DNA of 64,000 bases from contig CANKHA010000002.1 of the NCBI GenBank assembly GCA_947481685.1, positions 62,001 to 126,000 of the forward strand. Reading direction: 5' to 3'. Position numbers and translations under genes: made by a program. The DNA is from Bradyrhizobiaceae bacterium (lineage in GTDB: Bacteria; Pseudomonadota; Alphaproteobacteria; Rhizobiales; Xanthobacteraceae). Positions 11,189 to 17,039 of the stretch are shown one piece after another; within the stretch, counting starts at the first letter, position 1; every line of letters starts with the position of its first letter. Under the pieces are notes generated by a model. It was given only the letters and a program-made list of their open reading frames with translations, did not search any database and had not been told where the DNA came from.

Positions 11189-12607
11189 TCAGGCATTCAA
11201 TACACGGCCATAAGCATCCAGCACTGCTTCCTTCATCATTTCCGACAAAGTCGGATGCGGGAAGACTGTATGCATCAACTCTTCTTCGGTGGTTTCGAGA
11301 TTCATCGCGACCACATAGCCCTGGATCAGCTCAGTGACTTCAGCGCCGACCATATGCGCGCCAAGCAACTGGCCGGTTTTCTTGTCGAAGATCACTTTCA
11401 CCATGCCCTGGTCTTCGCCCAGCGCTATGGCCTTGCCGTTGGCGGCGAAAGGGAAGCGGCCGACGCGCACATCGAGTTTCTTTTCCCTGGCGGCCTGCTC
11501 AGTGACGCCGACCGAGGCAATCTGAGGTGAGCAATAGGTGCAGCCGGGGATAAGGCTCTTGTCCATCGGATGCACCTTCATCCCCTTGATGGCCTCGATG
11601 CAGATCACGCCTTCATGTTCGGCCTTGTGCGCGAGCATCGGCGGACCGGCAACGTCGCCGATGGCATAGATGCCAGGCACGTTGGTGCGGCTGAACTGAT
11701 CGGTGACGACAATGCCGCGATCGGTTTTCACGCCGACCTTTTCCAGTCCAAGATTTTCGATGTTGCCGACGACACCCACAGCAGAGATCACGCGATCGAC
11801 TGTGAGCGTCTGCGTGGTCTTTCCGTCGTCAATGGTCGCAGTGACGCTGTCGGCTTTCTTGTCGAGCTTCGTCACCTTTGCGCCGGTGAGGATTTTGATG
11901 CCCTGCTTCTCGAATGCCTTGCGTGCGAAGGCCGCGATCTCTGTGTCTTCCACCGGCAGGATTTGCGGCAGGAGTTCAACGATCGTCACTTCAGCACCGA
12001 ACGCGCGATAGAAGGATGCGAACTCGACGCCGATGGCGCCGGAGCCGACGACCAGCAGTGACTTCGGCATTTTCTCCGGGACCATGGCTTCGAAATAGGT
12101 CCAGACCAGTTTCTTGTCCGGTTCGAGTCCGGGCAGCACGCGCGGACGCGCGCCGGTTGCGACGATGATGTGCTTGGCCTGATAGCTTCCCGGCCCGAGC
12201 GTGCCTTTCGGCGCCTCAGTCTTCGATGCCTTCACCGTGACCTTGCCCGGGGCGTCGATCATCGCCTCGCCCCAGATCACCGAGACCTTGTTCTTCTTCA
12301 TCAGATAGCCGACGCCGTCGTTCAGACGCTTCGACACACCGCGCGAGCGCTGTACCACCGCCTTGGCGTCGTAGCCGACCTTTTCCGCCGAGAGCCCGTA
12401 ATCCTTGGCGTGCTGCATGTAGTGGTAGACTTCCGCGGAGCGCAGCAGCGCCTTGGTCGGAATGCAGCCCCAGTTCAGGCAAATGCCTCCGAGGTGGTCG
12501 CGTTCGATGATGGCGGTTTTGAATCCGAGCTGTGCGGCGCGGATGGCGGTAACATAACCGCCAGGGCCCGAGCCAATGATCAGAACGTCGAAGGAAGTAT
12601 CAGACAC
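11189..12607 (-). CDS. lpdA: Dihydrolipoamide dehydrogenase (E3 of pyruvate dehydrogenase)
   Basis: FAD-linked disulfide reductase that reoxidises dihydrolipoyl groups with NAD; 472 residues. Features: FAD-binding GSGPGGYVTAIRAAQLG, redox pair in GGICLNWGCIPTKALL, NAD-binding VVGSGAIGVEFASF, second FAD motif IYAIGDVAGPPMLAHKAEHEG, and the C-terminal catalytic HPHPTLSE. The start codon follows the stop of the small membrane gene with no gap, indicating coupling. Its place after pdhC marks it as the E3 dedicated to pyruvate dehydrogenase. Confidence 0.97.
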   Translation of the reverse strand: MSDTSFDVLIIGSGPGGYVTAIRAAQLGFKTAIIERDHLGGICLNWGCIPTKALLRSAEVYHYMQHAKDYGLSAEKVGYDAKAVVQRSRGVSKRLNDGVGYLMKKNKVSVIWGEAMIDAPGKVTVKASKTEAPKGTLGPGSYQAKHIIVATGARPRVLPGLEPDKKLVWTYFEAMVPEKMPKSLLVVGSGAIGVEFASFYRAFGAEVTIVELLPQILPVEDTEIAAFARKAFEKQGIKILTGAKVTKLDKKADSVTATIDDGKTTQTLTVDRVISAVGVVGNIENLGLEKVGVKTDRGIVVTDQFSRTNVPGIYAIGDVAGPPMLAHKAEHEGVICIEAIKGMKVHPMDKSLIPGCTYCSPQIASVGVTEQAAREKKLDVRVGRFPFAANGKAIALGEDQGMVKVIFDKKTGQLLGAHMVGAEVTELIQGYVVAMNLETTEEELMHTVFPHPTLSEMMKEAVLDAYGRVLNA

Positions 12608-12826
12608 TTAGTTCTCCAACCGCCGCTTGTGGATGATCCGTCTGACCCACCACTCCAACACCACAAGCAGGACAACGACTGCAAGCGCCGTGAAGAAAAT
12701 TGGCTGGGCAATGTTGCGGGATAACTGCTCGCCCGAGAAAAACGCCAGATAGATGAAATCCTGTCCGACCGGAAACACGGCCAGCGCGACAGCCATCAGC
12801 ACGGTGATCCAGGGCCAACGGTGCAT
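12608..12826 (-). CDS. Unknown small membrane protein in the pdh operon
   Basis: 72 residues with two likely membrane helices (about 4-27 and 43-60) and a basic end (WWVRRIIHKRRLEN), so the C-terminus is likely cytoplasmic. I do not recognise the family. It sits between another unknown membrane gene (1 nt upstream) and lpdA (0 nt downstream), so it is almost certainly translated from the pdh message. The real reading frame is supported by this perfect packing and by a clean two-helix hydropathy pattern. Confidence 0.7.
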   Translation of the reverse strand: MHRWPWITVLMAVALAVFPVGQDFIYLAFFSGEQLSRNIAQPIFFTALAVVVLLVVLEWWVRRIIHKRRLEN

Positions 12827-12827
12827 G

Positions 12828-13232
12828 CTAGCTCCTCCACCGCAGATAGTAACGCAGCAGGTACCATTGCAAGGTCACGGTCAGGCACATGGGAACGATG
12901 AATTGCAACGCGCCCTGTCCGTCGCGCCCGAAATTGATGTTTCCGCCGCTCTGGCTCAGGCCAATCAGGACAATCGCAGCAATTGGAGCCAGCAAAACCC
13001 ACATCGCGATCTTGATGGCGCGTTCAGTACGCGCACGCCACAGCGTGATCCCCATGACCAGCATCGTCACCACCGCATAAAAGATCGTGCCGACAATGCC
13101 GTAAACTTCTCCCATGCCCACCGACGCTGCGTCGTCAAAGCGTGGCAACCAGTGGGTTGCGACGTAAACCAGTGAAATACCAACGCCGAAAGACAAGGCG
13201 GCGGCGAGTGGAACCATCAGCAACAGGGGCAT
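12828..13232 (-). CDS. Unknown four-helix membrane protein in the pdh operon
   Basis: 134 residues, strongly hydrophobic, with likely helices at about 5-27, 40-65, 75-95 and 108-128, and charged loops (RARTERAIK after helix 2). I recognise no enzyme motif. It starts 19 nt after pdhC ends and its stop is separated by one base from the start of the next small membrane gene. The pair could form a small membrane complex; no function can be assigned from sequence. Confidence 0.72.
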   Translation of the reverse strand: MPLLLMVPLAAALSFGVGISLVYVATHWLPRFDDAASVGMGEVYGIVGTIFYAVVTMLVMGITLWRARTERAIKIAMWVLLAPIAAIVLIGLSQSGGNINFGRDGQGALQFIVPMCLTVTLQWYLLRYYLRWRS

Positions 13233-13251
13233 CGGTCTCCTCGCCTGGTGG

Positions 13252-14559
13252 TTAGACCACCATCATCACCGGATTTTCGATCATCGATTTGATGGCGCCG
13301 AGAAGCTGAGCGCCGAGAACGCCATCTACCGCGCGATGATCGGTGGAGAGGGTCGCGCTCATCACGGTCGCCGCTTCGACCTTGCCATTGCGCACGATGG
13401 CGCGCTGTTCTCCGGCGCCGACAGCGAGAATGGTCGCATGCGGCGGATTGATCACGGCGGAGAATTCGCGGATGCCGTACATGCCGAGGTTGGACACGGC
13501 GCTGGTGCCGCCCTGAAATTCCTCGGGCTTGAGTTTCTTGGCGCGCGCGCGGCCGGCAAGATCCTTCATCTCGTTCGAGATCGCCGAAAGGGATTTGCTC
13601 TCCGCGTTGCGGACGATGGGGGTGATCAGCCCGCCGGGAATGGACACTGCCACGCCCACGTCGGAATGCTTGTGCTTGAGCATACCGACTTCGGTCCAGG
13701 TCACATTGGCATCCGGCACGCGTTGCAGCGCGACGGCCAAAGCCTTGATGACAAAGTCGTTGACCGAAACCTTCCAGGCTGGCTTGCCGTCCTTGTCCTT
13801 CGGCGCGGCGTTGTTGATCTCTTCGCGCGCGGCCAAAAGGTTGTCGATGACGCAATCGACCGTCAGATAGAAATGCGGGATGGTCTGTTTCGCTTCGACC
13901 AAACGCTTGGCAATGATCTTGCGAATATTGTCGTGCGGAATGATCTCGTAGCTGCCCTGCTCGAACAGCGCGCGGATTTTGTCGTCGGACTGCGGTGTCG
14001 CAAGGCCTGCCGCCGCAGCCGGAGCCTTCAGGGCCCCGCCGGATTTTGCGGCGTCGATGTCACGCGCCACGACGCGGCCATGTGGGCCGGAGCCTGCGAC
14101 GCGCGACAGATCGATATTGGCTTCCTTTGCCAGCCGCTTGGCGAGCGGTGACGCAAATATCCGGTTGCCGTTCTGAACGGATGGTGCGGGTGCGCTTTGC
14201 GGAACAGCGGCGGCTTGCTTTGGTGCCTCTGAGGCTTTGGAAGTGTCCGCGGGCTTTGCCTCAGCCTTCGGCGCGAGAGCAGACTGTCCACCGGAAGCGG
14301 CAGCCTTCACGTCTTCGCCTTCACCGGCGAGGATTGCGATCAGCTGATTGACCGGAACGTCCTGTGTGCCTTCCGGCACGATGATCTTGGCGAGTGTGCC
14401 TTCATCGACCGCCTTGACTTCCATGGTCGCCTTGTCGGTTTCGATTTCGGCCAGCACGTCGCCGGGAGCGACCTTGTCGCCTTCTTTCTTCACCCATTTG
14501 GAGAGGTTGCCCTTTTCCATCGTGGGCGAAAGCGCGGGCATGAGGATGTTGGTCGGCAT
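13252..14559 (-). CDS. pdhC: Pyruvate dehydrogenase E2, dihydrolipoamide acetyltransferase
   Basis: 435 residues. One N-terminal lipoyl domain (lysine in [11 protein letters not shown], about residue 43), an Ala/Pro-rich linker, a peripheral-subunit-binding domain (FASPLAKRLAKEANIDLSRV, GPHGRVVARDI), then the catalytic acetyltransferase domain (IPHFYLTVDCVID; active-site STDHRAVDGVLGAQLL near the C-terminus). The frame is open to 14661, but the ATG at 14559 begins the lipoyl domain and lies 7 nt after the pdhB stop, so it is the start. Confidence 0.96.
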   Translation of the reverse strand: MPTNILMPALSPTMEKGNLSKWVKKEGDKVAPGDVLAEIETDKATMEVKAVDEGTLAKIIVPEGTQDVPVNQLIAILAGEGEDVKAAASGGQSALAPKAEAKPADTSKASEAPKQAAAVPQSAPAPSVQNGNRIFASPLAKRLAKEANIDLSRVAGSGPHGRVVARDIDAAKSGGALKAPAAAAGLATPQSDDKIRALFEQGSYEIIPHDNIRKIIAKRLVEAKQTIPHFYLTVDCVIDNLLAAREEINNAAPKDKDGKPAWKVSVNDFVIKALAVALQRVPDANVTWTEVGMLKHKHSDVGVAVSIPGGLITPIVRNAESKSLSAISNEMKDLAGRARAKKLKPEEFQGGTSAVSNLGMYGIREFSAVINPPHATILAVGAGEQRAIVRNGKVEAATVMSATLSTDHRAVDGVLGAQLLGAIKSMIENPVMMVV

Positions 14560-14566
14560 GTGCGTG

Positions 14567-15946
14567 TTACCGGTAGCAGACGGCTTTGGCGGCGGCGACG
14601 ACTTCGCCGACGGAGGGCAGCGCCAGTTTTTCGAGATTGGCAGCGTAAGGCAGTGGGACATCCTTGGCGGAGACGCGGATCACGGGAGCATCGAGATAGT
14701 CGAAGGCTTCTTCCATGATGCGGGCGGAAATCTCGGCGCCGATGCCGGACTGCTTCCAGCCCTCCTCGACCGTAACGACCCGGCTCGTCTTTTTCACGGA
14801 ATTGACGATGGTCTCGGTATCCATCGGGCGCAGCGTGCGCAGGTCGATGACTTCAGCGGAGATGTTTTCCTTCGCCAGTTCTTCTGCCGCCTTCAGGGCG
14901 TAGCTCATGCCCATCGCGTAAGCGACGAGTGTAACGTCGGTGCCCTCGCGCGCGATGCGTGCGCGGCCGATCGGCAGCACGTAGTCATCGAGCTTCGGGA
15001 CCGGGAAGGATTGGCCGTAAAGGATTTCGTTTTCCAGGAAGATGATCGGATTGGGATTACGGATCGCAGCCTTCAGCAGGCCTTTGTAATCGGCGGCCGT
15101 ATAGGGCGCGATCACCGTCAGTCCGGGAATGTGCGAATACCAGGAGGAGAAATCCTGGCTGTGCTGCGCGGCGACGCGCGAAGCAGCGCCGTTCGGACCG
15201 CGGAAGACAATCGAACAACCCATCTGTCCGCCGGACATGTAGAGCGTCTTGGCGGCTGAGTTGATCAACTGGTCCATCGCCTGCATGGCAAAGTTCCAGG
15301 TCATGAACTCGACGATCGGCTTCAGGCCTGCAAGTGCGGCGCCGACGCCAAGGCCGGCGAAGCCATGCTCGGTGATGGGCGTATCGATGACGCGCTTCAC
15401 GCCGAATTCCTGCAACAGGCCCTGGGTGACTTTGTAAGCGCCCTGATATTCCGCGACCTCTTCACCCATGACGAAGACGTCCGGATCGCGACGCATTTCC
15501 TCGGCCATGGCGTCGCGCAAAGCTTCGCGCACGGTCATCATGACCATCTCGGTGCCTGCCGGCACGTCGGGATCCGGTAGTGCTTTCGGCTGTGCGGGCA
15601 CTGTGGCCCTGGGCGCCTCTGCGGTTTTCTCTTCTTTTGCGGGCGGCGTGGATTCCGCGGCCTTTGGCGCAGGCTGGGCGGATTTTGCGGCGGAAGCGTT
15701 TTCGCCTTCCGACAGGATGGTCGCAATCGGCGTATTCACCGCAACGTCTTGCGTGCCTTCCGGCACGAGGATCTGGCCGAGCGTCCCCTCGTCCGTGGCC
15801 TCAACCTCCATCGTAGCTTTGTCGGTTTCGATCTCGGCGATCACGTCGCCGCTTTTGATCGTCTCGCCCTCTTTCTTGAGCCATTTGGCAAGATTGCCCT
15901 TCTCCATGGTGGGCGACAGGGCGGGCATGAGAACTTGAATCGGCAT
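14567..15946 (-). CDS. pdhB: Pyruvate dehydrogenase E1 beta subunit with an N-terminal lipoyl domain
   Basis: 459 residues, longer than a plain E1 beta because a lipoyl domain (about 1-80; [11 protein letters not shown]) and an Ala/Pro linker are fused in front of the transketolase-like E1 beta region (about 135-459; [54 protein letters not shown]). This fusion is characteristic of alphaproteobacterial and mitochondrial-type-like pdh operons. It pairs with PdhA to bind thiamine diphosphate and decarboxylate pyruvate; the added lipoyl domain is a further LipA substrate. Confidence 0.96.
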
Positions 15947-15992: not shown

Positions 15993-17039
15993 TCAGCGCA
16001 TCACGTCGGTATAAAGCTCGGAGGGATCTGGCTCCGGATCGTTGGTGGCAAATTCGCCGGCTTCATTGACCCTGGCGCGCACTTCGGCATCGATTTTCTT
16101 CAGCGCGTCTTCGGTCATACCCTTCTCGAGCAAACGATGGCGGACCTGCTCGATCGGGTCCTGCTCGCCGCGCACCTTCTCCACTTCCTCGCGCGTCCGG
16201 TACTTCGCCGGATCGGACATGGAATGACCGCGATAGCGGTAGGTGAGCATTTCGAGGATATAAGGGCCCTTGCCTTCGCGGCACCGTTTCACGGCCTTTT
16301 CGCCGGCCGCTTTCACGGCGCGGACGTCCATGCCGTCAACCTGTTCGCCTTCGATGTTGAAAGAAATGCCGCGGCGGGAAAGATCGACGGTGGAAGACGA
16401 GCGATTGATCGAGGTGCCCATAGCGTAGCGGTTGTTCTCTATCACGTAGATGACCGGGAGCTTCCACAACGAGGCCATGTTGAAGCTCTCATAGACCTGG
16501 CCCTGGTTGGCAGCGCCGTCGCCGAAATAGACCACGCTGACATTGTCGTTGCCGCGATAGCGGTTCGCAAAAGCCAGGCCGGTGCCAAGCGGCACCTGAG
16601 CGGCAACGATGCCGTGACCGCCGAAGAATCCTTTTTCGACCGAGAACATATGCATCGACCCGCCTTTGCCGCGGGAGTAGCCGTTCTTGCGGCCGGTGAG
16701 TTCAGCCATCACGCCTTTCGGGTCCATGTCGCAGGCCAGCATGTGGCCGTGGTCCCGATAACCGGTGATGATTTGATCGCCCTGCTTCAGCGCCATCTGC
16801 ATCCCAATGACGACCGCTTCCTGTCCGATGTAGAGGTGGCAGAAACCGCCGATCAGGCCCATGCCGTACATCTGGCCCGCTTTTTCCTCGAAGCGGCGGA
16901 TGGAGAGCATGTCGCGATAGGCGACGAGATCCTGCTCTTTGCTGAATTCGGGCACCGCATTGGGGCTGCCTTGACCGGTTGAACCGGCCCGGCTGGAAAC
17001 ATCTGGTGTGGCGGATTTGGCGGAGGAGACGGCGGCCAT
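15993..17039 (-). CDS. pdhA: Pyruvate dehydrogenase E1 alpha subunit
   Basis: 348 residues. The thiamine diphosphate/Mg motif [20 protein letters not shown] is present, as are [21 protein letters not shown] and the phosphorylation-loop-like [19 protein letters not shown]. The first 30 residues form a variable Ser/Ala-rich lead. An SD GGGAG is 3 nt before the ATG. It begins the pdhABC operon; the 46-nt spacer to pdhB carries no hairpin I can see. Confidence 0.97.

Follow-up and report, generated by a model that had tools for sequence, protein, structure and literature searches.

The locus studied here raises the question of why two small membrane-protein genes separate the E2 gene from the E3 gene in a pyruvate dehydrogenase (PDH) operon. 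In bacteria, PDH is regarded as a soluble complex that is controlled by transcription and by metabolites. The window, i.e. the whole stretch of 64,000 nucleotides that was analysed, contains this operon on its minus strand. The names M134 and M72 were coined here for the proteins of 134 and 72 amino acids, respectively.

The pdh operon and its two small membrane proteins

The genes of the operon and of its downstream flank are as follows.

15993–17039, minus strand: pdhA, E1 alpha (PF00676 by Pfam)
14567–15946, minus strand: pdhB, E1 beta with a lipoyl domain (Transket_pyr, Transketolase_C, Biotin_lipoyl)
13252–14661, minus strand: pdhC, E2 (PF00198, Biotin_lipoyl, E3_binding), for which an internal start at 14559 is likelier
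12828–13232, minus strand: M134 open reading frame (ORF), 134 amino acids, ATG start, of an apparently new, uncatalogued family
12608–12826, minus strand: M72 ORF, 72 amino acids, ATG start, likewise of an apparently new, uncatalogued family
11189–12607, minus strand: lpd, E3 (Pyr_redox_2, Pyr_redox_dim), whose GTG start abuts the M72 stop codon
10163–11107, minus strand: lipA, lipoyl synthase, downstream of lpd (Radical_SAM; LIAS_N 0.3 bits below the cut-off)

The sequence-only reading placed two small membrane-protein ORFs inside the operon, at 13232–12828 and 12826–12608, with gaps of 19, 1, and 0 bases across pdhC, M134, M72, and lpd, and both the ORFs and the gaps were confirmed. The G+C content at third codon positions was 0.73 and 0.77 in the M134 and M72 ORFs, similar to the 0.74–0.76 of the operon genes. 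No minus-strand terminator-like site lies within 12608–13252, and the region holds 11 terminator-like sites against a shuffled expectation of 9.5, i.e. no excess. The spacing suggests, at most, that M134 and M72 are co-transcribed with the pdh operon. Translational coupling, which the sequence-only reading had proposed from this tight spacing, is possible at most because a purine-rich, ribosome-binding-like stretch of its own lies just upstream of the start of each small ORF, and independent initiation is equally possible. The E1 beta encoded at 14567–15946 has a lipoyl domain (PF00364) of its own at the N terminus.

Four hydrophobic segments in M134 and two in M72 correspond to four and two predicted transmembrane (TM) helices, respectively, and hydropathy and charge analysis of the loops predicts cytoplasmic N and C termini for both proteins. 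Their longest loop is at most 23 residues, the inner loops and tails measure 3–15 residues, and the cytoplasmic loops and tails are predicted to be basic. The window M134 aligned with the M134 profile (A2) over profile positions 1–129 (E = 3.0e-34), and the window M72 matched the M72 profile (A3; E = 1.0e-27) and contained the pattern conserved in that alignment, WPW, P-x-G, and E-(x)3-R; in both cases, the window sequence is one of those from which the profile was built.

The absence of a recognised family, as first noted from the sequence, was borne out. Neither the window M134 and M72 nor 26 M134 and 21 M72 relatives gave a credible match in Pfam or NCBIfam, transporter families included, so that the two families were not traced to any unrelated well-known family. 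Five proteins searched against PHROGs gave no credible match, and M134 and M72 gave only chance matches to solved chains. The AlphaFold2 model of M134, built from seven sequences, has four helices with a pLDDT of 66 and a pTM of 0.45; its best Foldseek match had an E value of 0.64, and the VIA-align rows were general helical bundles. Foldseek searches with this model and with that of a natural M134–M72 fusion (L284), both of low confidence, returned nothing at E = 0.001 or better, which does not amount to a new fold. The profiles built here define two families that appear uncatalogued in the libraries scanned (Pfam, NCBIfam, and PHROGs). An apparent homology of M72 with the second half of M134 was a MAFFT artefact, ruled out by an hhalign probability of 1.4. 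No literature on the M134 and M72 genes was found in openly licensed PMC papers.

The median dN/dS was 0.31 in the M72 family (55 pairs), and 0.20 (15 pairs) and 0.32 (three pairs) in the M134 family, after one row had been exchanged in the six-member M134 set and two rows had been removed from the Afipia-type set on account of frame or end errors. Purifying selection acts on the relatives of M134 and M72.

Distribution of the two families and occupancy of the pdhC–lpd junction

The organism's own family is Xanthobacteraceae, represented here by 296 genomes of 47 genera. The pdhC–lpd intervals were fetched from family genomes (101 loci examined, L001 included), and profiles A2 and A3 were made from the relatives gathered at this junction. 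Because the profile members came from the junction, the counts of location rest on whole-genome searches, and matches with E values above about 1e-9, located elsewhere or unplaced, were left out. A single-sequence search with the window protein gave a match in 6 of 100 family genomes, the genus being represented by one genome, and scanning named genomes with the M134 sequence alone gave no relative; the M134 family diverges too fast for such a scan, so profiles were needed.

Genome-wide, profile A2 gave 37 matches (E ≤1.1e-16) in 36 of the 296 family genomes and 9 of the 47 genera, and profile A3 gave 48 matches (E ≤5.1e-17) in 48 genomes and 15 genera. At the cut-offs used, M134 is absent from 260 and M72 from 248 of the 296 genomes, whereas pdhC was detected in 95 of 100 family genomes. 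The sequence-only reading had tied the synthesis of the two proteins to the PDH complex, and had itself named absence of the genes from most relatives as a refuting outcome. Most relatives do lack them, and a general membership of the two proteins in the complex is not supported.

Where the genes do occur, their placement is nearly invariant. All 37 M134 matches and 47 of the 48 M72 matches in the family genomes are adjacent to pdhC and/or lpd and share their strand, the sole M72 match away from the junction being that of genome G062. Beyond the family, profile A2 gave eight matches (E ≤7.7e-10) in 7 of 297 genomes of the order, and six of these eight, from two other families, sit at the pdhC–lpd junction. 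For M72, no convincing match was obtained outside the family among 347 genomes of the order, some of them of the own family (three matches outside, at E = 9e-4 or weaker). The position, whose conservation across Hyphomicrobiales had been offered as a check on the early proposal, is conserved well beyond this genome. In the pooled set, which takes in loci fetched because they contain pdhC or lpd, 93 of 96 distinct members lie at pdhC and/or lpd, and all 93 are on the operon strand. M134 and M72 are located near-exclusively at the E2–E3 junction and are co-oriented with the operon, in their own and two other families.

One M134 relative lies outside this setting. In the 99% complete genome G432, it (L266:3327-3761) is flanked by an ftsB-like gene and lipA, where PDH genes would be expected; no PDH E2 is detectable in this genome, and the only E2-type gene comes after a sucA-like end.

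The junction itself is highly variable. The pdhC–lpd interval ranged from a few bases to 4092 bases (98 family, 55 order, and 78 named intervals) and exceeded 200 bases in 79 of the 98 family intervals, for which most of 20 added loci were chosen because they contain M134, as well as in 40 of the 55 order and 46 of the 78 named intervals. Other genes at the junction, named by eye rather than by profile, were hydrolases or esterases, GNAT acetyltransferases, Bug-type receptors, and DUF465-like and DUF559-like genes. A GDSL-type hydrolase occupied 9 of the 55 order intervals. TAXI-TRAP genes, also named by eye, were on the opposite strand in five of five cases; where such an insert separates pdhC from lpd, lpd must have another promoter. 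Inserts of this kind were observed at L050, L056, L076, and L082.

A third family is found at the same place. Family C, as defined here, comprises uncatalogued proteins of about 160 amino acids in which one TM helix is combined with a conserved soluble part; some cysteines are invariant, and the N.DC end is conserved (alignment A8; L218:762-1223 plus 15 other rows). Its 23 matches, spread over 21 of 139 family genomes, all adjoin pdhC and/or lpd, and the window's own genome gave no match. Like M134 and M72, family C is a small, uncatalogued membrane protein restricted to the pdhC–lpd junction; unlike them, it has a single TM helix and a conserved soluble part. A copy sometimes adjoins M134. 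In genomes G008 and G041 (L044 and L073), the family C copies are split over two frames, as if decaying.

These observations bear on four readings of M134 and M72. The nearest rival to the accessory module proposed below is that they are passengers: the E2–E3 junction would be a place that tolerates insertions within an operon that is well expressed, and the two proteins, with an unrelated membrane function, would be passed on by vertical descent. The wide range of junction lengths and the esterase, GNAT, Bug receptor, DUF559-like, and opposite-strand TRAP genes found there fit this reading, as do the retention of M134 in G432 without a PDH E2 and a high turnover, presence having changed at least 11 times for M134 and at least 24 times for M72 on a FastTree of lpd proteins with 159 tips. 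However, insertion cargo should occur elsewhere too, and M134, M72, and family C almost never do, whereas lipA, which serves the E2 of the PDH complex, was near lpd in only 31 of 87 own-family intervals; moreover, all 93 placed members are co-oriented with the operon. We regard the passenger reading as a doubtful but serious possibility.

The ORFs might instead act chiefly as spacers that separate E2 from E3 and set the ratio of their expression, the protein being secondary. In 26 named spacers of 60–210 nucleotides without an M72 match, strong hairpins were predicted (z < −2 in 23 and < −3 in 14, relative to shuffles), which would suit such a role, and no M72 remnant was found in these spacers at E values up to 1. 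Purifying selection on the protein, and the existence of near-zero junctions of 1–16 bases, which indicate that no spacer is needed, render this very improbable. Palindromic, repeat-like pdhC–lpd spacers were seen in place of M72 at L288, L289, L290, L304, and L310.

Two further readings would each be one mode of the accessory module, and their probabilities are given for each taken alone. According to the first, M134 and M72 would form a transporter, or an accessory of one, for pyruvate or a related carboxylate. Their four plus two TM helices, giving six upon fusion, and the carboxylate-receptor-like genes (Bug and TAXI) that other genomes carry at this junction are consistent with this. Small four-TM subunits and transporters are known, namely LrgA/CidA (including the pyruvate facilitator PftA), TctB, DctQ, EmrE, and MPC, and M134 resembles them in size, TM number, and the idea of carboxylate handling. 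However, none of these was matched by the 26 M134 members at E values up to 0.05, and LrgA/CidA, TctB, DctQ, and MPC were all absent from the Pfam scan of the 26 M134 and 21 M72 members at that threshold. Furthermore, the window has no large permease gene beside M134 and M72, in contrast to small-subunit transporter systems, the TAXI-TRAP genes are on the opposite strand in every case, and neither a transporter family at a credible E value nor, with the low-confidence models, a fold was matched. A transporter role is improbable.

According to the second, M134 and M72 would be anchors by which the PDH complex is held at the inner membrane. Their basic cytoplasmic loops and tails would be suitable for this, and family C, with its soluble part, occurs at the same junction, sometimes beside M134. 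However, hardly any soluble domain is exposed by M134 and M72, given inner loops and tails of only 3–15 residues, and most relatives have PDH without either protein, leaving little probability for an anchor.

Fusion and co-occurrence of M134 and M72

Both families were present together in 17 family genomes, and in 12 of these M134 and M72 form one uninterrupted ORF, M134 first, in the same order as in the window; the fused protein has six predicted TM helices. Genome G133 carries an unfused relative of M134 (49% identity to the window M134), followed by a fused copy. Fusion usually indicates that two proteins work together, and we infer physical contact between M134 and M72. Each was nevertheless often found without the other, and independent pairs on the lpd FastTree, the only tree on which their independence was judged, showed no tendency to co-occur. 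Because of the many changes on this tree and the lack of co-occurrence in independent pairs, the pair is not obligate.

A proposed accessory module of the PDH operon

The proposal that M134 and M72 are part of the PDH complex was rejected, both being absent in most relatives and M134 being kept in G432 without a PDH E2; on these grounds, "accessory" is preferred over "part of the complex". Because M134, M72, and family C are almost never found elsewhere while lipA wanders, a role tied to the PDH operon is favoured, and we infer that M134 and M72 share a function with PDH. We propose the following scenario, for and against which we judge the evidence to be about evenly balanced: M134 and M72 may be an accessory module in the membrane, restricted to this operon, that modulates either the PDH step or the supply of its substrate on the membrane side. 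The two small inner-membrane proteins would form one module, at times as a single fused six-TM protein, would be expressed from the PDH operon, and would act on the PDH step from the membrane side, modulating it without helping to build it. Candidate modes are holding the complex near the membrane, handling substrate, and tuning E2/E3 output. The near-exclusive, co-oriented location, the fusions, purifying selection, and the like restriction of family C speak for the module. The patchy presence of the genes, their high turnover on the lpd tree, the lack of co-occurrence, the cases of G432 and G062, the opposite-strand TAXI-TRAP and other unrelated genes at the junction, and the junctions with hardly any spacer all argue against it.

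In Sinorhizobium meliloti, PDH activity is reported to be impaired when the gene for a putative arylesterase is disrupted (Soto 2001, cited in PMC12542648). This may serve as a precedent for accessory genes that influence PDH, though the arylesterase is a soluble hydrolase and M134 and M72 are membrane proteins without a hydrolase profile match. The arylesterase gene is reportedly located in the pdh operon, which would make it, like M134 and M72, an accessory cistron of that operon. An effect of an accessory gene on PDH has been published before, whereas the M134 and M72 families appear to be new.

A broader and rather unlikely extension is that M134, M72, and family C are an interchangeable membrane-side control layer on PDH, which might, for example, dock the complex at the inner membrane, near its substrate supply. 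If this is true, the E2–E3 junction in Xanthobacteraceae and relatives houses at least three small membrane families found almost nowhere else. Protein families that are confined to one operon, fuse with each other, and are retained in several bacterial families despite low sequence identity point to a membrane link to PDH that may have been overlooked. This candidate link concerns some Alphaproteobacteria, including Bradyrhizobium, Afipia, and Rhodoplanes, some of which are culturable, and close Bradyrhizobium species differ naturally in the presence and absence of the genes, so the role is directly testable. Among 80 lpd loci of named genomes, M134 was found in 6, including Afipia, one Bradyrhizobium, and one Rhodoplanes fusion that is counted under both families, and M72 was found by a looser interval scan in 20, mostly of Bradyrhizobium.
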